DNA from: Daejeonella sp.
GTDB taxonomy: Bacteria > Bacteroidota > Bacteroidia > Sphingobacteriales > Sphingobacteriaceae
DNA: 64,000 bases
Assembly (NCBI RefSeq): GCF_017495225.1
Contig: NZ_JAFEIG010000003.1
Location: 55,108 to 119,107, forward strand
Direction of reading: 5' to 3'
Notes under the pieces: generated by a model
What the model saw: only the letters and a program-made list of their open reading frames with translations
What the model was told of the DNA's origin: nothing
Databases searched by the model: none
Shown: in pieces, positions 54,974 to 63,884 of the stretch
How the letters are laid out: each line of letters opens with the position of its first letter
Numbering within the stretch: the first letter of the stretch is position 1
Position numbers and translations under genes: made by a program

Positions 54974-55558
54974 CTAGATCAAATTTCTATCTCTAAACCA
55001 CACATCATCTGGCTTCGAATCAAATTGTTCCATAATAGAAACAAGTTCAGCAGGATTCTCATGTGAAATAACTAAATCTCGATTTATCGGTTTTAGAAAC
55101 TTGTTATTTACCATCATATCCATTTGCAGTAATAAAGGATCATAAAAACCATTTACATTTAATATTCCTATAGGATTATTATGTAAGCCAAGTTGTAACC
55201 AAGTTAGGACTTCAAAAAACTCCTCCATAGTACCAAAACCACCTGGCAAAGTAATCACGCCATCTGAAATATCGGCCATTTTCTGTTTCCTTTGGTGCAT
55301 ATTTTCGGTAATAATCATTTCAGTTAATCCGGTATGTCCAACCTCTTTGTCCATTAAAAACTGAGGTATCACCCCTATCGCCTTTCCCCCGCGCTCCAAC
55401 ACCGAATCAGCCATTAAGCCCATCACCCCTACGCTACCACCACCAAACACCAAAGTAATATCCTTAGCAACAAACACATCCGCCAATTGGTGAATTGCTT
55501 TTAGTAACACCGGATCGCCACTAAAGTTTGCGCCGCAGAACACAGAGATTGATTTCAT
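54974..55558 (-). CDS. TIGR00730 (LOG) family protein, short form
   Basis: The 194-aa Rossmann protein starts MKSISVFCGANFSGDPV and has FGGGSVGVMGLMADSVLERGG and the active-site motif LPGGFGTMEEFFEVLTW. These mark a nucleoside 5'-monophosphate phosphoribohydrolase (LOG) like plant cytokinin-activating enzymes. In bacteria the usual activity is hydrolysis of AMP-type nucleotides. It is the second LOG protein within 3 kb but is too divergent from the first to be a recent duplicate. A -7 box lies 37 nt upstream. Confidence 0.92.
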   Translation of the reverse strand: MKSISVFCGANFSGDPVLLKAIHQLADVFVAKDITLVFGGGSVGVMGLMADSVLERGGKAIGVIPQFLMDKEVGHTGLTEMIITENMHQRKQKMADISDGVITLPGGFGTMEEFFEVLTWLQLGLHNNPIGILNVNGFYDPLLLQMDMMVNNKFLKPINRDLVISHENPAELVSIMEQFDSKPDDVWFRDRNLI

Positions 55559-55595
55559 TTTATTAGATATGTAATTTTTGAATTTTAATGGATGG

Positions 55596-55603
55596 CAAAG
55601 CTA
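55596..55603 (-). promoter_or_regulatory. -7 promoter element of the short LOG gene
   Basis: Reverse-strand TAGCTTTG matches TAnnTTTG, 37 nt before the ATG. Confidence 0.5.
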
Positions 55604-55717
55604 AGGATTATGGTGGGAATTCGAAAAAAGGGAAATTGGGTTGGGAATATCATGGAGCAAATGGCTGAGATTTTTTTGAAGGAATGAATGGGCTTGCTTG
55701 CAGGATGCAGAAAATTG

Positions 55718-55747
55718 GCTCCCGCAGATTTCGCGGATCAGCGCAGA
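55718..55747. repeat. 30-bp interspersed repeat, copy 1
   Basis: GCTCCCGCAGATTTCGCGGA followed by TCAGCGCAGA; identical to copy 2. Weaker similarity continues for about 12 nt beyond it. Confidence 0.9.
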
Positions 55748-55902
55748 GAGGGCTTCTCGCGAAAACGCAGAGAAATACCACCGTTAAAAAAGATATGATG
55801 ACAACACCAACCAGAGATTGAACAAGAGCTTATTTACATAAATGAACCGAATCACCTTAATAAACCTTAATCCCTTAATGTTTATAAATTGGGTACCTAG
55901 GT

Positions 55903-55918
55903 ACAGGTCGCGACCTGT
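55903..55918. repeat. palindromic repeat ACAGGTCGCGACCTGT, inverted copy
   Basis: Perfect 16-bp palindrome. Its right flank (CCTCTTTCAAAT) resembles the left flank of the two copies near 62.7 and 63.8 kb in reverse orientation. A second palindrome, GTACCTAGGTAC, abuts on the left. Confidence 0.85.
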
Positions 55919-56012
55919 CCTCTTTCAAATCAATAAAAAATTGCACCACCAAATCTTTGTAAGCAAAAAACAGCGGGAAAATCTGCGGAATCTGCGGGAA
56001 ACAAAAAAAGAA

Positions 56013-56042
56013 GCTCCCGCAGATTTCGCGGATCAGCGCAGA
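56013..56042. repeat. 30-bp interspersed repeat, copy 2
   Basis: Identical to the copy at 55718-55747, 295 nt downstream in the same orientation. Confidence 0.9.
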
Positions 56043-56188
56043 AAAGGTTTCTCGTGGAGCTGTAATGAACTAGTAGATTTTAATTTCGGGGCTTGAAAAT
56101 GACCTATTTCCCTTAGACAAGCCCTTTAGTATTAAAACTTTGATATAAATATTAAGATAGAATTTATTGAAATAGCTAATTTTTTAAT

Positions 56189-56322
56189 ATTAAAGAAATT
56201 AATTATATTAGAACAATCGTTTTAAAATTCAAATAAATATTTTATTAAAAAAATTGCTTTTCATTTTTTTAATTCATGAAATGGTTTTCTATTAATTAGC
56301 GAATTTTTAAATTTCAATTAAG
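56189..56322 (+). repeat. duplicated upstream segment, copy A
   Basis: Shares ATTAAAGAAATTAATTATA at its left end and TCATGAAATGGTTTT plus ATTTTTAAATTT at its right end with 58450-58629. The poly-T-containing middle is also similar. It precedes the 63-aa membrane protein gene. Confidence 0.8.
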
Positions 56323-56356
56323 TAGTGTACGGTAAAATATTTTCAATTTCATAGTC

Positions 56357-56548
56357 ATGATAAATTATAAAACTCAATTTTTCCTATTTGTAACAATGAT
56401 TTCAATTTGTTTGGCAACATACATATTCATTGCAGTAAATTACAATGAGAACAAGACCTATCTGATTGCTTCCTTGCTTACACTTAACGTTTTAATGATG
56501 ATTCTTGTAAGTCAAGCAAAAAAAAATTACAAGAAGATTAAATGGTAA
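56357..56548 (+). CDS. small two-helix membrane protein, unknown
   Basis: I do not recognise a family. The 63-aa protein has two hydrophobic helices (FFLFVTMISICLATYIFIAV and LIASLLTLNVLMMILV), a short polar loop and a lysine-rich tail (KKNYKKIKW), which predicts both ends inside. Size and topology match the 62-aa protein next to the bacteriocin-like peptides and many immunity proteins, but the two sequences are not clearly homologous. It follows duplicated segment A, so it may be an orphan immunity-type gene left after loss of a peptide gene. Confidence 0.6.
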   Translation: MINYKTQFFLFVTMISICLATYIFIAVNYNENKTYLIASLLTLNVLMMILVSQAKKNYKKIKW

Positions 56549-56642
56549 CTAATGGTGAATTTTCATCCTAATCGCCCAGAACCTGCTCTCGTTTAGAATG
56601 ATTTTATAGTGTTTGGGCTTGAAACGCCGAGTTTATGTTTTT

Positions 56643-57539
56643 ATGATGAAATTTATTTTATTTTTTTTAATCCTATGCTCAATCAATGTATTTGCTCAAG
56701 AGAATACTTTAGTGAAGGGCAAAATTATTAATCTCGAGACTAAAGAACCCATTCCCTATTGTTCTATAGTATATCTAAAAAAGGATAAAGGTGTTTTTTC
56801 TGATAGTTTGGGGAACTTTATTTTAAAGAAAGATCCTTTGCTTGATTCTATACAAATTACATCTTTAGGCTATGAGAAAAAGCTTTTATCAATACAAATA
56901 CTTGAAGCAAATAATCTTGTCATTTCATTAAAGCCAATCTATTTTAAACTTAATGAAGTCGCAATTACTCCAGATGACAATAAAATAAAACAAAAAAAAA
57001 ACAAGAAAAAGCTAGGTCCTATTGCAACGAAACTAAACTCGCCAAAGGGAATTGGACCAGGAGTCTTAGGTAGAATATCTGCAATTTATGTGGCAAATCA
57101 GACGCAAAATATACCTAAAAAAATAACTGAAGTTCATTATGATTTAAGAAACAGAAAAAATTCAATTGTCAGGGTTCAATTGTATCATAGAAATGAATTA
57201 ACAAATTTACCAGACAAAGCATTGATTTTAGAAGATTTAATTGTCAAGTTGAAACCTGGCCAAAATCGCTTAAATGTTAATATTGAAAAATATAATTTAA
57301 TGATGCCAAATAACGGTTTATTCGTCAGTTTGCAATGGTTAGGAGAGTTGGATGCTAAGGGACGTCACACAAATACTTATCTAAATATTAGTCCTGATTA
57401 CACCTTTAATGTAGATGACCATAATATATTAAATTATGTTAGTTTTTTAAATAAAAACTGGATAGCTGATAATTTCTTTTATGAAAAAAAATATTGGATC
57501 CCCCGTTTTGGCATTTCAGTTATAGAATATTCTAAATAA
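56643..57539 (+). CDS. secreted CarboxypepD_reg-like protein, paralog 1
   Basis: The preferred start is the ATG pair at 56643/56646 (MMKFILFFLILCSINVFAQ), which begins a clean signal peptide; the track TTG adds ten residues. Residues 20-95 form a carboxypeptidase-regulatory-like domain (VKGKIINLETKEPIPYCSIV ... SLGYEKKLLSI). The C-terminal domain contains VRVQLYHRN, PNNGLFVSLQWLGEL and the end FGISVIEYSK, shared closely with the next gene. It starts 2 nt before nothing else; its partner begins 2 nt after its stop, so they form a transcript. The role is unknown but is probably extracytoplasmic. Confidence 0.75.
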   Translation: MMKFILFFLILCSINVFAQENTLVKGKIINLETKEPIPYCSIVYLKKDKGVFSDSLGNFILKKDPLLDSIQITSLGYEKKLLSIQILEANNLVISLKPIYFKLNEVAITPDDNKIKQKKNKKKLGPIATKLNSPKGIGPGVLGRISAIYVANQTQNIPKKITEVHYDLRNRKNSIVRVQLYHRNELTNLPDKALILEDLIVKLKPGQNRLNVNIEKYNLMMPNNGLFVSLQWLGELDAKGRHTNTYLNISPDYTFNVDDHNILNYVSFLNKNWIADNFFYEKKYWIPRFGISVIEYSK

Positions 57540-57541
57540 GG

Positions 57542-58414
57542 ATGAAAACTTTAATTTTCTATTTCTTTCTCCAATTTATTTTTTTGGATTTAGTTGCTCA
57601 AAGCAAGTATATTAAAGTGCTTGATAATACCACAAAAAGGCCTATAGAATATTGCACAATTACCTGCTCTAATGATGCAAAGGGTGGTTTTACAAATATC
57701 GATGGTTTATTAAAAATTACTGACTTAAAGGATTGTGCTAGTATTACAGTAAATACTATTGGATATAAAAAAAGAATTGTGGATTTAACTAAGCTGCAAT
57801 TAGGTTTAGACACGTTATACTGCCTTTTAACTAAAGATACCATTCAATTAAATGAGATTAAAATCACTCCAAATAAAGATAAAGCAAAGAAGGTATTCTA
57901 TAATTTAGGCCATTTTAAAGCTAAAAATGAAATTTATAATCGAACAGGGGACATAGGTAGAACTGACGCACTTTACATCCCTAACCTTAATAAATCTCTA
58001 AATATTAAAATTGAAAAATTATTGTATTCAATTGATGCTACTGAATCGGCAAAAGTTAGATTACACATCTATACATCATCCAATTTAAAAACACCCGGTA
58101 CGCCTCTTATTAATGATGATCTTGTAATTAAAGTTGAGAAGGGTGCCAAGAAGATTGTTGCAGATGTTTCAAAATATAATCTAATAATGCCAGAGGATGG
58201 TTTGTTTATCTCCTTACAATGGCTCGGAGAGATAAAGGCAATGAATAAAACTAAGAATATTAACCCTATTATTAAATCACATTGGGACAAAGATTTTAAT
58301 AGTGTTACTTTTTTTAAATTCCTTGATGGAAATTGGGAAAAAAGATATTTTAAATCCAAAAATGGTAATATTATACCAAATTTTGGTATTTCAGTTATAG
58401 AATATTCTAAATGA
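57542..58414 (+). CDS. secreted CarboxypepD_reg-like protein, paralog 2
   Basis: The 290-aa protein has a signal peptide (MKTLIFYFFLQFIFLDLVAQ), an N-terminal regulatory-like domain (YIKVLDNTTKRPIEYCTITC ... TIGYKKRIVDL), and a C-terminal domain ending PNFGISVIEYSK, nearly identical at the end to paralog 1. Tandem duplication is clear. It lies just before the bacteriocin-like peptide locus and is enclosed by duplicated segments A and B, so it could belong to that accessory module. No enzymatic motif is visible. Confidence 0.75.
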   Translation: MKTLIFYFFLQFIFLDLVAQSKYIKVLDNTTKRPIEYCTITCSNDAKGGFTNIDGLLKITDLKDCASITVNTIGYKKRIVDLTKLQLGLDTLYCLLTKDTIQLNEIKITPNKDKAKKVFYNLGHFKAKNEIYNRTGDIGRTDALYIPNLNKSLNIKIEKLLYSIDATESAKVRLHIYTSSNLKTPGTPLINDDLVIKVEKGAKKIVADVSKYNLIMPEDGLFISLQWLGEIKAMNKTKNINPIIKSHWDKDFNSVTFFKFLDGNWEKRYFKSKNGNIIPNFGISVIEYSK

Positions 58415-58449
58415 AGGTTATAATTCAATCAAATAACAAAATTTCATAC

Positions 58450-58629
58450 ATTAAAGAAATTAATTATACCAAAACGGTTATTTTTATCTTTAAAAAATAT
58501 ATTTTACAAAAAACTTGCTTTCTATTTTTTTTTTTTGACTTTAGGTTAATGTTTGGCCAACAGCATAACAAAACTGTACTCATGAAATGGTTTTGTATTA
58601 ATTAACAGATTTTTAAATTTAAATTAAAG
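58450..58629 (+). repeat. duplicated upstream segment, copy B
   Basis: Aligns with 56189-56322 along its length but carries an extra stretch of about 40 nt (from GACTTTAGG to AAACTGTAC) containing the palindrome TTGGCCAA. It ends 5 nt before the ATG of the 60-aa peptide, so the repeat includes that gene's promoter region. Confidence 0.8.
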
Positions 58630-58633
58630 AAAA

Positions 58634-58816
58634 ATGAAAACATTGAATTTAAAGGAAATGGAAGTTATTGAAGGTGGGGGAATGAACCAAAGAAATTGCG
58701 GAATATCTGGAGCTTGTATTGCAATTGGTGTTATTGCTGGTTTCGCTAGTTTTGGGTTGGGTTGGAAGGCTGCAGGAGCCTGTGCTGCAATTGCTCTAGC
58801 TGGTGATTGTTTTTAA
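58634..58816 (+). CDS. bacteriocin-like peptide with double-glycine leader (60 aa)
   Basis: The precursor begins with a 15-residue double-glycine leader, MKTLNLKEMEVIEGG, with the hydrophobic pattern (L, M, I) that C39 peptidases recognise. The predicted 45-residue mature part is Gly/Ala-rich, has four cysteines (RNCGISGAC, GACAAIALAGDCF) and a central hydrophobic helix, typical of membrane-active class II bacteriocins. Two disulfides are possible. A C39 ABC exporter and a thioredoxin-like protein lie downstream. Antibacterial action is inferred; a signalling peptide is the alternative. Confidence 0.85.
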   Translation: MKTLNLKEMEVIEGGGMNQRNCGISGACIAIGVIAGFASFGLGWKAAGACAAIALAGDCF

Positions 58817-58842
58817 ATTAAGCATGCTAAATAAAATAAAAT

Positions 58843-59031
58843 ATGTATAATAAAAGTAAAGTGAGCACTGATATTTTGTTAATATGCCTTAGTGTATTTT
58901 TAATATTAAACTTGCAAATTAAATTTTGCGACCCAACATGGAATCTTGGTGTTCCTGTCTTTTTTTTATTACATCATGCTAGTCAAATTATTGAAAAATT
59001 AAAAACAAAAAAAAATGAAAAAAATAACTAA
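58843..59031 (+). CDS. small membrane protein, candidate immunity protein
   Basis: I do not recognise a family. The 62-aa protein has two hydrophobic segments (ILLICLSVFLILNL and LGVPVFFLLHHA) and a lysine-rich C-terminus (KLKTKKNEKNN). It sits between two double-glycine peptide genes, 26 nt after the first, and its end overlaps the start of the second by 17 nt in another frame. Immunity proteins of class II bacteriocins often have this size, topology and position, so immunity is a reasonable but unproven role. Confidence 0.6.
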   Translation: MYNKSKVSTDILLICLSVFLILNLQIKFCDPTWNLGVPVFFLLHHASQIIEKLKTKKNEKNN

Positions 59032-59167
59032 TGTAGAAATGTCAAATATCCAAGGCGGTATAAAATGCATTTACCATTTTATGGCTGTATTACCTCTTGG
59101 GATTTGGAATGTATTTGGTAACGGAAAGTCTGTTATAGAATGTTGGAATAATCACCACAAAGAATAA
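59015..59167 (+). CDS. second double-glycine leader peptide (50 aa)
   Basis: This ORF is below the track's length limit. The leader MKKITNVEMSNIQGG has the same length and pattern as the first peptide (V/I, M, I, GG). It is followed by a 35-residue mature part (IKCIYHFMAVLPLGIWNVFG...) with two cysteines, aromatic residues and a polar His-rich tail. It overlaps the preceding membrane gene by 17 nt and ends 8 nt before a strong terminator. Two precursors in one transcript suggest a two-peptide bacteriocin or two separate cargoes of the same exporter. Confidence 0.8.
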   Translation: MKKITNVEMSNIQGGIKCIYHFMAVLPLGIWNVFGNGKSVIECWNNHHKE

Positions 59168-59175
59168 AAATCTTT

Positions 59176-59205
59176 AAAACAGGGGCCAAAACACCCCTGT
59201 TTTTT
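59176..59205 (+). terminator. terminator after the peptide genes
   Basis: AAAACAGGGG / CCCCTGTTTT, a 10-bp stem with an 8-nt loop and a T-run, directly after the 50-aa peptide gene. It separates the peptide transcript from the export genes. Confidence 0.92.
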
Positions 59206-59222
59206 AATAACTCATTGTCTTT

Positions 59223-59879
59223 ATGCTCAACCAACTCAAGACCTACCCCACGGTATGGCTATTCATATTTTATTGCCTTTATCTTTCTTGTATCAACTAT
59301 TTCGTACAAACATTTTTATTTACTGAAAATGTTATTTACAATAGCTATGCGGAACAATTAAGCTTTGATAGAATTGAAGAAATCATTGATGAACAAAACA
59401 AATATTCATGGCTTGGATATTTAATAATTCCTTTACTACAAGCTATAAAATTCTTTTTAGTAGCCTGTTGTTTAGCGGCTGGCGCTTTGTTTTTTGATTT
59501 AAAACTAAAATTTGGCCAAGCCTTTAAGGTGGCACTTTTAGCAGATGTAGTTTTTATTGTGCCCATGTTAATTAAAATTTTCTGGTTCATGGTAATAAAG
59601 CAAGATTATACATTACAAGATTTGCAAATGTTTAGTCCGCTTTCTGTACTAAACCTAATGGACACCAAAAATATAGGTGTTTTATGGCTTTACCCACTTC
59701 AATTACTTAATGTTTTTGAGCTTGTATATATTTTATTATTAGGTTTTTGGGTTTACCAATTTGTTGCTAAAAGTTTTGAAAAAGGCTTAAATATGGTATT
59801 AAGCTCCTATTTGCCTGCACTATTTATCTGGATAGTTTTAGTAATGTTTGTTACATTAAATTTAAACCCGCAAGCTTAA
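59223..59879 (+). CDS. polytopic membrane protein of the peptide export locus, unknown
   Basis: I do not recognise a named family. The 218-aa protein has about five or six predicted transmembrane helices (e.g. VWLFIFYCLYLSCINYFV, LLQAIKFFLVACCLAAGALF, LPALFIWIVLVMFVTLNL) and a loop with several acidic residues after the first helix. It overlaps the next gene by one base (TAATGA), so it is coupled to the thioredoxin-like gene and the C39 exporter. It could be an export accessory factor or an immunity protein. No CAAX protease motif is visible. Confidence 0.7.
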   Translation: MLNQLKTYPTVWLFIFYCLYLSCINYFVQTFLFTENVIYNSYAEQLSFDRIEEIIDEQNKYSWLGYLIIPLLQAIKFFLVACCLAAGALFFDLKLKFGQAFKVALLADVVFIVPMLIKIFWFMVIKQDYTLQDLQMFSPLSVLNLMDTKNIGVLWLYPLQLLNVFELVYILLLGFWVYQFVAKSFEKGLNMVLSSYLPALFIWIVLVMFVTLNLNPQA

Positions 59880-60394
59880 TGAAAAAGAAAAAATATCTTT
59901 TACTGGCCATTGTATTAGTTTTAATGAGTTTTACTGGCTATTTAGTGAGTAAAATTATAATTACCAAACAACAAAATGCTATTGTAAAGTCCACCAAACA
60001 AACCCTACCCAATTTTACTTTTTACAATTTAGATAGTCTTGCTACTAACAGTACTTTTATAAAAAAGGGTAAGTCCGTTTGTATTTTTTATTTCAATGCA
60101 GAATGTGAGTACTGCCAAAACGAAGCCAGAGACATCAGTAAAAACATTGCGCTATTTAAGGACACTCAAATTGTGATGGTAAGCTTTAATACCATTGCTG
60201 ATATTAAAAAATTTGCTTTAGAATATGGCTTGAATTATCCCAATATTGTTTTTTTACAAGATCCCAAATTTCAATTTTCAAGCTGGTTTGGCAAATCGAG
60301 TATTCCTTCCGTTTTTATATATAATGCGCAGCATCGTTTGGTAAAAGAATATCAAGGAGAAACCAAGATTGAAGCCATAATTAAGTATCTCTAA
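59879..60394 (+). CDS. membrane-anchored thioredoxin-like (TlpA/redoxin) protein
   Basis: The 171-aa protein has one N-terminal transmembrane anchor (YLLLAIVLVLMSFTGYLV) and a thioredoxin-fold domain with CxxC in NAECEYCQNEA and the cis-Pro loop SSIPSVFIY. The domain should face the periplasm. It lies inside an operon exporting cysteine-containing peptides, so it probably forms, reduces or shuffles their disulfides; that is inference from position. It overlaps the membrane-protein gene by one base. Confidence 0.88.
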   Translation: MKKKKYLLLAIVLVLMSFTGYLVSKIIITKQQNAIVKSTKQTLPNFTFYNLDSLATNSTFIKKGKSVCIFYFNAECEYCQNEARDISKNIALFKDTQIVMVSFNTIADIKKFALEYGLNYPNIVFLQDPKFQFSSWFGKSSIPSVFIYNAQHRLVKEYQGETKIEAIIKYL

Positions 60395-60435
60395 ACCAGT
60401 TTAACCCTCATTTTTTATTCTTCTCTTAACCTTTT

Positions 60436-62604
60436 ATGCTAAAGTTATCTTCTATTAAAAAGACTTTTGTTTTGCAACAAGATCAAAGCGATTGTGGCGT
60501 GGCTTGTTTATTGTCTTTAATTAATTATTACAAAGGTACCAATAGCTTAGAAAAGCTTCGCGAATTGAGTGGTACTACAATCACTGGGACCACACTTTTA
60601 GGTTTATACCAATGTGCAAACCAAGTAGGATTTACTGCAGAAGCATTTGAGGCAGATATGCCTAATCTAAAAGCCCTAAATGAGCCTTGTATTTTACATG
60701 TTTTAATGGAGGGCAATCTGGAACATTATATAGTATGTTACGGCTATGAACATGATTCTGCAACATTTATTATAGGTGATCCTGGAAAAGGATTAACGCA
60801 AATAACTGAACTAGAATTAGACCAAATTTGGCAAAGCAAGGCACTTTTACAGCTTATTCCAAAAGACAGCTTTGAGCTTAAAAAACAGCAACATAATGCT
60901 AAATGGCTATGGTTTAAACAATTAATAAAGGATGATTTAAATATTTTAACCATAACAATGGTACTGGGTGTTTTGGCTACAGTACTTAATTTGGCAACAG
61001 CAATTTTTTCGCAAAAATTAATAGACAATATTCTGCCATCGGGTAACCAACAGAAACTTATAATTAGTTTAGTTTTATTGTTTTTAGTCTTGCTTATTAG
61101 AGTAGGACTTACTTTTATAAGGCAACATTTTCTATTGTTGCAAAGTAAAGATTTTAACAATCGTATAGTAGGTAGTTTTTTCGATGCACTCGTTCACTTA
61201 CCAAAATCGTTTTTTGATAGCCGAAAAACAGGTGATATGATTACTCGAATGAATGATACCGCACGCATTCAAGAAAATATAGCTTATATTTCTGGCTATG
61301 TATTTATAGATATAATTATTTTATTTACCAGTTCATTTTTCTTAATTAACTACTCACTAAGCATTGCATTAATAACCTTTGCTTTTATACCTATAATTGT
61401 TCTTGTTATTTTAAGCTATACAAAGCCCATCAAAAACCATCAAAAAAATTTAATGATGGCAAGTGCTTTAAATGAAAGCAATTATATAGACACAATAAAC
61501 GGCATCATGGTAATTAAAGCTCAGGGCGAAGAGCGTTTTTTTACCCAAAAAATAAAAACTGTTTATGCTAATCTTCAGGATAAATCTTTTGCCTTGGGTA
61601 AGTTGGGCAATCGTTTTTCAATAACTACCGATATCATTAGTGTGGTATTAAGTTTGGTTTTAATTACAGTTGCTTCATTCATGGTGCTAAATAAACAGTT
61701 AAAAGTAGGTGAAATGATGGCCATAATTTCCTTGACGAGTACTTTAATACCAGCGGTTGGTCGTTTGTCGCAAATTAACCTGCAAATACAAGAATCAAAA
61801 GTAGCTTTTGATAGGATGTATGATTTTACTTCGATATCGCCTGAATTTGAAGTGGAGTCAATTGTACCCTTCGATTTTAAAAGTTTAGAGGCAAAAAACA
61901 TTTCTTTTCGTTTTGCCGGTCGGAAGCCTGTACTTCAAGATATTAGTTTTACCCTTGCCAAAGGTGAGATGATCGCTTTACTAGGCGAAAGTGGTTGTGG
62001 CAAAAGCACAACAATGGCTATTTTAGAAAAATTTTATCAGCCCGAAACTGGCGATATTTTGGTTAATGGTAAATCTTTGCAAAGCATTTATACACCAGCT
62101 TGGAGAAGCATGGTGGCTGTGGTACCCCAAGAAATAAAGCTTTTTAACGGCACATTATTGGAAAACATTGCCATTGGCAACCTTAGAGAAGATGAAGTAA
62201 TTAACATTATTCATTTTTGTAATCAAATGGGTTTTGATAAATATTTTGAAGCTTTACCACAGGGTTATTTTACCTTAGTTGGTGAAGAAGGGATAAACCT
62301 TAGCGGCGGCCAGAAACAGTTGCTTGCTTTAGCTAGAGCATTGTACCGAAAGCCTCAAGTACTGTTATTGGATGAGGCTACTTCTGCAATGGACAGAAAT
62401 ACAGAAAAATTTATTTTAAACTTGTTGGAAAGTCTAAAAAATGAAATGGCCATTTTACTAATTACACATAAAATGCAAACTGCAAAAATATCAGATCGAA
62501 TTTATGTAATTGAAAATGGGAAAATTACATCAAATGGCAGCCCAAATCAATTAATGGAATCAGATAATTTCTTTAGTCAGCTAGTTTCGGATGCAGTAAT
62601 GTAA
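60436..62604 (+). CDS. C39-peptidase-containing ABC transporter (bacteriocin exporter)
   Basis: This 722-aa protein cleaves double-glycine leaders and exports the cargo. Residues 8-140 are a C39 peptidase with catalytic Cys in QDQSDCGVACL, His in LEHYIVCYGY and Asp in IGDPGKG. A six-helix ABC membrane domain follows (about 165-450). The ATPase has Walker A GESGCGKST, signature LSGGQKQLLALARAL, Walker B VLLLDEATSAMD and the switch His in LITHK. All catalytic residues are intact. It lies 41 nt after the thioredoxin gene; no HlyD-type adaptor follows. Confidence 0.95.
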   Translation: MLKLSSIKKTFVLQQDQSDCGVACLLSLINYYKGTNSLEKLRELSGTTITGTTLLGLYQCANQVGFTAEAFEADMPNLKALNEPCILHVLMEGNLEHYIVCYGYEHDSATFIIGDPGKGLTQITELELDQIWQSKALLQLIPKDSFELKKQQHNAKWLWFKQLIKDDLNILTITMVLGVLATVLNLATAIFSQKLIDNILPSGNQQKLIISLVLLFLVLLIRVGLTFIRQHFLLLQSKDFNNRIVGSFFDALVHLPKSFFDSRKTGDMITRMNDTARIQENIAYISGYVFIDIIILFTSSFFLINYSLSIALITFAFIPIIVLVILSYTKPIKNHQKNLMMASALNESNYIDTINGIMVIKAQGEERFFTQKIKTVYANLQDKSFALGKLGNRFSITTDIISVVLSLVLITVASFMVLNKQLKVGEMMAIISLTSTLIPAVGRLSQINLQIQESKVAFDRMYDFTSISPEFEVESIVPFDFKSLEAKNISFRFAGRKPVLQDISFTLAKGEMIALLGESGCGKSTTMAILEKFYQPETGDILVNGKSLQSIYTPAWRSMVAVVPQEIKLFNGTLLENIAIGNLREDEVINIIHFCNQMGFDKYFEALPQGYFTLVGEEGINLSGGQKQLLALARALYRKPQVLLLDEATSAMDRNTEKFILNLLESLKNEMAILLITHKMQTAKISDRIYVIENGKITSNGSPNQLMESDNFFSQLVSDAVM

Positions 62605-62938
62605 TTTTCATTTAATGTTGTTCTTCTCGAGCAAATTGCACTATGCTAGGCGGTATTAACCATTACAATTAATCAACATTTTCTACACTCCTATCCCAGC
62701 CAGCCCTAATTCTCTGATTTCAAAGAGGACAGGTCGCGACCTGTCCCTACGCATAGGTGCTAAGCCAAATTTATCCGCCCAGCCTGACAACGGATAACGG
62801 TTTTGCAGTTAAGCGTGAGTTGAACTTTCGAAGTAATCATTGTCAACTAAGCAGAAAATTGATAAATGCACAAAGCTTGATTTAACCAAGAAAAATCAAT
62901 TTGGGTAGCTGCTGTTGTGAATTCGGTTTTCTTTTCTG
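62605..62938. other. gene-free gap with palindromic repeat
   Basis: No gene is visible. It contains copy 1 of the 64-bp direct repeat, a short CAGCCTGACAACGGATAACGG segment related to the heptamer repeats at 32.1 kb, and otherwise unremarkable sequence up to the end of higA. Confidence 0.8.
62711..62774. repeat. 64-bp direct repeat flanking higBA, left copy
   Basis: Starts TCTCTGATTTCAAAGAGG and contains the 20-bp palindrome GGACAGGTCGCGACCTGTCC (62727-62746). It is identical to 63821-63884. Confidence 0.92.
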
Positions 62939-63265
62939 TCAAGCGAGTTTAACAAAATTGTCTTCAAGTTTTACATTAAAATTAATTTCTGCTTTTAATG
63001 CTTTGAACACTTTTAATATCGTGTCAATGGTCGCACTATTGGCACTACTTTCAAGTTTAGAGATTTGAGCTTTCTGAACTCCAACAAGTCGTCCAAGTTC
63101 TTCTTGTGTCAAGTTTCTTTCTTGTCTAGCAGTTTTAATCATCTTTCCTAAAACGTCCATACGAAGTTCGTATTCATATTCGTCACGCTCTTGTGTCCCA
63201 ACTATACCGATATACTTATCTTTCATTTCGGCAAGCGAGTAGGTCTTTAATTCTTTAGTTGCCAT
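62939..63265 (-). CDS. HigA-type XRE antitoxin
   Basis: The 108-aa protein has a helix-turn-helix domain (RQERNLTQEELGRLVGVQKAQISKLE, residues about 48-75) after a conserved N-terminal segment. It is the second gene of a toxin-first pair, and its start overlaps the toxin end by 11 nt, the usual HigBA order. It should bind the toxin and repress the shared promoter. The base composition is less AT-rich than the neighbouring peptide genes, which suggests separate acquisition. Confidence 0.9.
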   Translation of the reverse strand: MATKELKTYSLAEMKDKYIGIVGTQERDEYEYELRMDVLGKMIKTARQERNLTQEELGRLVGVQKAQISKLESSANSATIDTILKVFKALKAEINFNVKLEDNFVKLA

Positions 63266-63611
63266 ATGATTTCTTTTTAAGTTTGTTGTTAAAATATTTG
63301 TCTCTTAGCCTTAATGCCCGGTCAATTTCGTTTGCCGAAACTTTGTCAACTTTCTTTATAAAACCGTGCGTCGCAAGAACTAAAGTTTCTTTATTATCAG
63401 TCTTGTCCCAAAATGCAAGTAGTCTGATTTGAAGTCCTGCGAACTTGGTCCGAAACTCCCAAATGTCATTTTGAAGTTTCTTAAAAAGTTTTGGATCATT
63501 CGTCTGCTCAGCAAGGTCAATATTGTAAAAGATTTTCTTAATAGTCTTTGAGTCAAGTTGCGAAATGAACTCGTCTGCTTCTTCTAAAAATATTGTCTCG
63601 AAATATCTCAT
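63255..63611 (-). CDS. HigB-type RelE/ParE toxin (Gp49-like)
   Basis: The 118-aa protein matches the RelE/ParE superfamily, Gp49/HigB branch: FLEEADEFISQLDSKTIKKI, IWEFRTKFAGLQIRLLAFW and TLVLATHGFIKKVDKV. Such toxins cleave mRNA in the ribosome. It precedes its antitoxin, with overlapping reading frames, behind a consensus -7 box. The pair is bracketed by a 64-bp direct repeat, which suggests it arrived or duplicated with its flanks. Confidence 0.9.
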   Translation of the reverse strand: MRYFETIFLEEADEFISQLDSKTIKKIFYNIDLAEQTNDPKLFKKLQNDIWEFRTKFAGLQIRLLAFWDKTDNKETLVLATHGFIKKVDKVSANEIDRALRLRDKYFNNKLKKKSYGN

Positions 63612-63820: not shown

Positions 63821-63884
63821 TCTCTGATTTCAAAGAGGACAGGTCGCGACCTGTCCCTACGCATAGGTGCTAAGCCAAATTTAT
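63821..63884. repeat. 64-bp direct repeat flanking higBA, right copy
   Basis: Identical to 62711-62774, including the palindrome GGACAGGTCGCGACCTGTCC at 63837-63856. Both copies are followed by a CAGCC-containing stretch. Confidence 0.92.

Follow-up and report, generated by a model that had tools for sequence, protein, structure and literature searches.

The window analysed here, a stretch of 64,000 nucleotides from Daejeonella sp. (NCBI RefSeq assembly GCF_017495225.1, contig NZ_JAFEIG010000003.1, positions 55,108 to 119,107 of the forward strand), harbors close to its end a compact locus with two double-glycine (GG) precursor genes and a C39 exporter, which is very probably a bacteroidetocin-type (class IIf) biosynthesis and export cluster. 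The locus belongs to this kind by its machinery, because the profile of its 218-aa transmembrane (TM) protein, here named TM218, recovers the TM protein of a related locus (L153, E 1.3e-19) whose gene order is TM protein, KFWG-type peptide with 4 Cys, thiol oxidoreductase (TRX) and C39 exporter; TM218 also aligns with the TM protein of another related locus, L105. A preliminary description of the + strand between 58634 and 62604 had listed two GG precursors, a small membrane protein, a terminator, a polytopic protein, a CxxC protein and a C39 exporter, and all of them were found in their places:

58634-58816, + strand: P1 precursor, 60 aa, with a GG leader (open reading frame (ORF), leader rule)
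58843-59031, + strand: basic-tailed small membrane protein of 62 aa, candidate for an immunity function (ORF, hydropathy)
59015-59167, + strand: P2 precursor, 50 aa, with a GG leader (ORF, leader rule)
59176-59205, no strand assigned: intrinsic terminator hairpin at the boundary between the precursor genes and the export genes (folding)
59223-59879, + strand: TM218, 218 aa with 5 TM segments, homologous to the TM protein in four-gene loci with a KFWG peptide (hydropathy, profile)
59879-60394, + strand: TRX, 171-aa membrane-anchored thiol oxidoreductase with a thioredoxin fold (AhpC-TSA match)
60436-62604, + strand: exporter of 722 aa with C39 peptidase, permease and ATPase parts (Peptidase_C39, ABC_membrane and ABC_tran)

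The P2 gene starts before the 62-aa gene ends. The terminator hairpin folds with a free energy of -14.6 kcal/mol (z -4.4) and has T-runs on both strands, and a pattern scanner reports it on the - strand only.

According to Coyne et al. 2019 (PMC6671954), the four genes of the bacteroidetocin region suffice for toxin production in E. coli: besides the gene of the peptide itself, which has four Cys and a 15-aa GG leader, they encode an unknown protein with five TM regions, a thiol oxidoreductase and an ATP-binding cassette (ABC) transporter of the C39 type. In the same account, the loss of the TM, thiol or peptide gene attenuates the activity, neither the TM nor the thiol protein confers immunity, the mature toxin starts right after GG, and further peptides from four classes of Bacteroidetes are given with a common leader length, at least two Cys and the same neighbours. 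The layout of the window locus, which the preliminary description treated as anomalous, is the published layout of this region. The features of class IIf are present, namely GG leaders of 15 aa, within the 15-16 aa of that class, at least two Cys in the mature parts, a 5-TM homolog of the TM protein from KFWG loci, a thiol oxidoreductase and a C39 exporter. The combination that marks a bacteroidetocin sensu stricto (42-48 aa, four Cys in similar positions and Lys after GG) is found in neither P1 nor P2, and the HlyD adaptor encoded with the exporter, as in a microcin V-like system, was found neither on the contig nor directly beside this exporter type in the relatives.

The precursor P1 has a 15-aa GG leader, MKTLNLKEMEVIEGG, and a mature part of 45 aa that contains 4 Cys and a hydrophobic helix, while P2 has a 15-aa GG leader, MKKITNVEMSNIQGG, and a 35-aa mature part with 2 Cys. 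The mature P1 is a Gly/Ala-rich helix that begins with GMNQ, and the precursor matches Bacteriocin_IIc (E 0.002) and MccV, both below the threshold. With one fixed rule, a total of 56 candidate precursors were obtained from 31 loci with a TM-linked exporter (TM-type) and 21 candidates from 11 HlyD-type loci, the related loci containing one, two or up to six precursors each. The leader is exactly 15 aa long in 49 of the 56 precursors from TM-type loci, so P1 and P2 are more than chance ORFs, and the leader conservation on which the preliminary description had made its reading depend is borne out. A mature part with 2 or 4 Cys was observed in 50 of these 56, as against 22.6 (standard deviation (sd) 3.7) expected when residues are treated as independent and peptides as unrelated. 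The 21 candidates of the HlyD-type loci carry leaders of mostly 22-25 aa, with 0, 1 and 2 Cys in ten, five and six peptides, respectively. In a hold-out of unseen loci from another order, which provided 23 precursors, 21 have the 15-aa leader and 15 an even Cys count (expected 8.8, sd 2.3). The leaders thus follow their rule very closely, and the cysteines follow theirs with exceptions, such as Coyne et al. (PMC6671954) had also noted for bacteroidetocin C. The disulfide maturation proposed earlier gains support because cysteines are paired in most peptides from adaptor-less loci, and the bacteroidetocin data in PMC6671954 point the same way.

The exporter (Peptidase_C39 E 2.7e-31) keeps Q15, C20, H97 and D115, with Walker A at residue 517, LSGGQ at 622 and the H-loop at 676, and TRX (AhpC-TSA E 1.3e-11) has an N-terminal membrane anchor and a CEYC motif at residue 76. 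The third protein, TM218, gave no convincing match in Pfam or NCBIfam. Its AlphaFold2 model (13 sequences, predicted local distance difference test score 82) is all-helical and compact, with five long helices that agree with the five hydropathy segments, without a periplasmic coiled-coil, lipoyl or beta-barrel part and without a long periplasmic region; a fold search of the PDB with this model found no match. HlyD adaptors have a large periplasmic coiled coil together with lipoyl and barrel domains. The earlier suggestion that the 218-aa protein replaces the adaptor is therefore unlikely, because the structure prediction gives a compact 5-TM helical protein without an adaptor-like domain. Since the model lacks a periplasm-spanning domain, and in view of the published deletion results, TM218 is more likely to be an inner-membrane partner of export or oxidation than an adaptor.

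Of 400 genomes of the order, 43 encode a homolog of TM218, the closer ones keeping the order TM218-TRX-C39, and the same order was also found in Pedobacter, Nubsella, records of Flavobacteriaceae and other families of the class. The search for this gene order among relatives, as proposed in the preliminary description, recovered TM-TRX-C39 in about 30 adaptor-less loci across the class. In the exporter tree, all HlyD-linked exporters (11/11) stand apart from all TM-linked exporters (28/28) with a support of 1.0. The closest relative, L097, has an exporter 87% identical to that of the window and fragments of a second TM218 gene on the same contig, which is labelled as a metagenome-assembled genome of Chitinophaga pinensis, a label that may be a binning error.

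A profile search of the genome contigs found no HlyD_3 match on the locus contig and 12 matches elsewhere in the genome, and the genome search likewise found no OEP (TolC-like) match on the locus contig; the window contains no HlyD or TolC gene, as first described. The same genome harbors C39 exporters on contigs C6 and C35, each with HlyD directly upstream and its own GG precursors. Among about 40 related loci, no HlyD is fused or operonic with a TM-type exporter, and HlyD lies near only two of them (L056 and L061), where it is part of a second, complete HlyD-C39 pair. The data support bacteriocin-like export through a C39 exporter that has no adaptor gene nearby, an absence that is kept in the related loci.

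The homology of TM218 was judged through L153 and L220, whose KFWG peptides make them stand-ins for the bacteroidetocin A/B region; when plasmids were searched with the L153 TM protein, no match was found. Several observations weigh against the assignment to the bacteroidetocin kind. The mature P1 and P2 are unlike the KFWG-type peptides, so that bacteroidetocin activity is not to be assumed for them. The cysteine parity is weaker in the hold-out, where the exceptions come mostly from L221 with its four peptides of 3 Cys, and the related loci L105, L106 and L154 have no TRX although their peptides carry 4 Cys. TRX itself falls in the ResA/AhpC-TSA group, some members of which are reductants.

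Three alternatives concern the route of the peptides. In a split type I secretion system, the exporter would rely on genes elsewhere for a HlyD-family adaptor and a TolC-like channel; the genome has many HlyD_3 and OEP proteins, E. coli, in which the four genes were shown to suffice, brings a TolC and adaptors of its own, and L056 and L061 adjoin a HlyD-C39 pair. However, the HlyD-linked C39 exporters group in a clade of their own and go with leaders of another length, the pairs beside L056 and L061 are complete systems with their own exporter, and the TM-type exporters stand without an operonic HlyD, which leaves this alternative possible but doubtful. It is rather unlikely that the peptides, instead of being actively secreted toxins, remain in the periplasm and act there as signals or envelope peptides, or leave the cell by lysis only: though the cluster encodes no outer-membrane component and Coyne et al. 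left lysis-dependent release possible, this machinery also makes the bacteroidetocins, which kill neighbours and have been obtained from wild-type cultures on plates (PMC6671954), and the small immunity-like proteins beside the precursors point to toxins. A true adaptor-less exporter, in which TM218 does the work of HlyD and makes the connection to an outer-membrane channel, is highly improbable, for though nearly all related loci lack the adaptor and nothing accompanies the exporter more constantly than TM218, TM218 is predicted to lie almost wholly in the membrane with no match to a known fold, and a homolog of it also stands beside a C39 protein without an ATPase domain.

This last arrangement was observed in 21 loci (L065-L089), mostly from one genus (g4), in which a TM218 homolog is followed by a protein of 450-505 aa with a C39 peptidase and a membrane domain and without an ABC ATPase (e.g., L079:5348-8759). 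The catalytic C/H/D are present in 21/21 of these proteins and the P-loop in 0/21, and at least 12 of the 21 loci contain a nearly invariant GG or AG peptide (...CAYNIAVSASVGGLFGGAGAAVGAVAAATGPSCLGWW). The neighbours in L079 are RteC, rhomboid, helix-turn-helix (HTH), MauE, DUF6520 and SusC/D-type genes. In loci of one family (L145-L152, f16), the profile search found TM218-like genes with no match to C39, TRX or the CarboxypepD_reg proteins (CPR) described below within about 7 kb. On contig C18 of the Daejeonella genome (G000), a 549-aa fusion of C39-like, VKOR and thioredoxin parts (L021:5768-7417) adjoins two GG-type precursors with a common leader.

Directly upstream of P1, on the same strand and beyond the list of the preliminary description, two CarboxypepD_reg proteins and a further small membrane protein are encoded:

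56158-56321, + strand: copy of the P1 upstream region, probable promoter/leader region, before the 63-aa ORF (direct repeats D1 and D4)
56357-56548, + strand: 63-aa small membrane protein with 2 predicted TM segments (ORF list, hydropathy)
56613-57539, + strand: CPR1, with a putative signal peptide, CarboxypepD_reg_2 and a second domain (PF13715 E 2e-10; homologs in related clusters)
57542-58414, + strand: CPR2, 34% identical to CPR1 and its tandem paralog (PF13715 E 9e-7, short of the curated cut-off; pairwise alignment)
58419-58627, + strand: P1 upstream region, AT-rich, repeated at 56158-56321 (repeat alignment)

The segment 56158-56321 matches 58419-58531 (D1) with 71% identity and 58580-58627 (D4) with 90% identity. 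The 63-aa protein, which takes the place of a precursor behind this copied promoter, is a candidate small immunity protein or a remnant. Many loci (L053, L055, L093, L097, L098, L102 and L104) have, next to helical precursors, ORFs for proteins of about 56-70 aa that carry one or two TM segments, and from their position and size, membrane proteins of about 60 aa are likely the best immunity candidates for the helical peptides. In L053 (3831-5971), L058 and L083, a 251-aa ABC ATPase and an unknown protein of about 460 aa were observed near the precursors and export genes, possibly an immunity-type ABC transporter.

Both CPRs of the window are about 300 aa long and have a putative signal peptide. 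The CPR1 gene starts with TTG, and the true start may be further in; the model of CPR2 (score 74) has a SusC-NTE-like domain and a second beta-rich domain. Homologs of about 300 aa were found inside or beside related clusters, mostly with under 100 nt between them and an upstream KFWG/FPWWG-type precursor (L088, L091, L097, L105, L106 and L154), and the hold-out repeats this neighbourhood in L213, L217 and L220. By hand count, a CPR is present in 7 of 9 loci with KFWG/FPWWG-type peptides as against 1 of 25 others, that one being the window (Fisher p 5e-5). The proteins are seldom met outside clusters (12 of 121 genomes of the family), and in seven such loci, one genome each, the gene adjoined neither a TM218-C39 cluster nor a convincing GG peptide. 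A cognate pairing is suggested by two peptide-CPR pairs in Nubsella, together with the same peptide and CPR subtype in L091. As far as the description by Coyne et al. (PMC6671954) goes, the four-gene regions of bacteroidetocins A and B have no CarboxypepD_reg gene and their producers are not immune, so the simplest reading of the CPR is that of a candidate immunity protein. The target of bacteroidetocins was later given as BamA (PMC8546649). Mimicry of BamP by the CPRs was considered and rejected, as the BamP match of CPR1 (E 5e-4) spans only the common N-terminal domain and SusC N-termini match better. No hidden KFWG-type precursor was found upstream of CPR1 (55540-56660); since the CPR genes of the window follow the duplicated P1 upstream region and no precursor precedes them, a toxin gene may have been lost there. 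Elsewhere in the genome (L020:6144-7903, contig C31), a 409-aa CarboxypepD_reg protein is directly followed by a stand-alone C39 peptidase of 173 aa.

The 6-kb locus has the lowest GC content in the window (0.299, against a mean of 0.345 with sd 0.014), which fits acquired DNA, as described for the bacteroidetocin regions (PMC6671954). In the sample, only one other genome of the same genus contains TM218, beside the ATPase-less C39 type. A 20-bp palindrome, GGACAGGTCGCGACCTGTCC, flanks the cluster at 55901-55920 and 62727-62746 and occurs again near the contig end at 63837-63856, with 0 occurrences expected, and a pair of HTH_3 antitoxin and Gp49-like (HigB-type) toxin is located just downstream of the exporter (62939-63611, - strand). 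A horizontal gain of the cluster is likely. The contig (C22) ends with the window, and the downstream view is limited to about 1.4 kb.

Under the bacteroidetocin-type reading, P1 and P2 would be made in the cytoplasm with their 15-residue leader, which the C39 domain of the exporter would cleave after GG during passage over the inner membrane, and the membrane-anchored TRX might then help to pair the cysteines in the periplasm, four in P1 and two in P2. TM218 would act as an inner-membrane partner of the exporter or the oxidoreductase that is needed for full activity, and as neither adaptor nor immunity protein. The cargo would be a helical, Gly/Ala-rich toxin-like peptide and not a bacteroidetocin of the KFWG type; the membrane proteins of about 60 aa would likely confer immunity to helical peptides, and the two CarboxypepD_reg proteins would probably serve in immunity or surface protection, left behind by a KFWG-type toxin gene that was lost.

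We would put forward only tentatively, and consider improbable in its entirety, the wider proposal that the adaptor-less C39 lineage exports without any HlyD or TolC, with its own 15-residue leader code and disulfide-paired cargo, and that the secreted CPR after KFWG toxins is the cognate immunity protein at the outer surface or the BAM complex. If a CPR is such a protein, this would explain why the producers of bacteroidetocins A and B are not immune, and the pairing with CarboxypepD_reg offers a concrete candidate immunity gene for this class of toxins. Bacteroidetocin-type machinery extends beyond the toxins of gut Bacteroidales to Sphingobacteriaceae, Flavobacteriaceae and other Bacteroidota with very different peptides, and the rule of a 15-aa leader, mostly paired cysteines and TM-TRX-C39 neighbours lets peptides that are often unannotated be listed from genomes.

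Compared with the bacteroidetocin A/B regions, the window locus has in common the 5-TM protein, the thiol oxidoreductase, the C39 ABC exporter, Cys-containing precursors with a 15-aa leader, the absence of an adaptor and a likely origin as acquired DNA. It differs in that its peptides are helical and unlike the KFWG-type toxins, its precursors sit before the TM gene with a terminator between, and small membrane proteins and two CarboxypepD_reg proteins are added. Relative to the description given by Coyne et al., two points are new, namely the helical cargo unlike bacteroidetocin and the CarboxypepD_reg protein that usually stands directly after the KFWG-type toxin gene. The HlyD-linked loci of the same genome (G000, contigs C6 and C35) are alike in their C39 exporter and GG precursors, but have HlyD beside the exporter, leaders of 22-25 aa, mostly unpaired Cys and exporters of a separate clade. 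With class IIb two-peptide bacteriocins and microcin V-type systems, the locus has in common two GG precursors, the hydrophobic helix in P1 and the sub-threshold matches to Bacteriocin_IIc and MccV, whereas it differs from them in its leader length, its CxxC and 5-TM partners, and the lack of a local adaptor and TolC such as microcin V needs.

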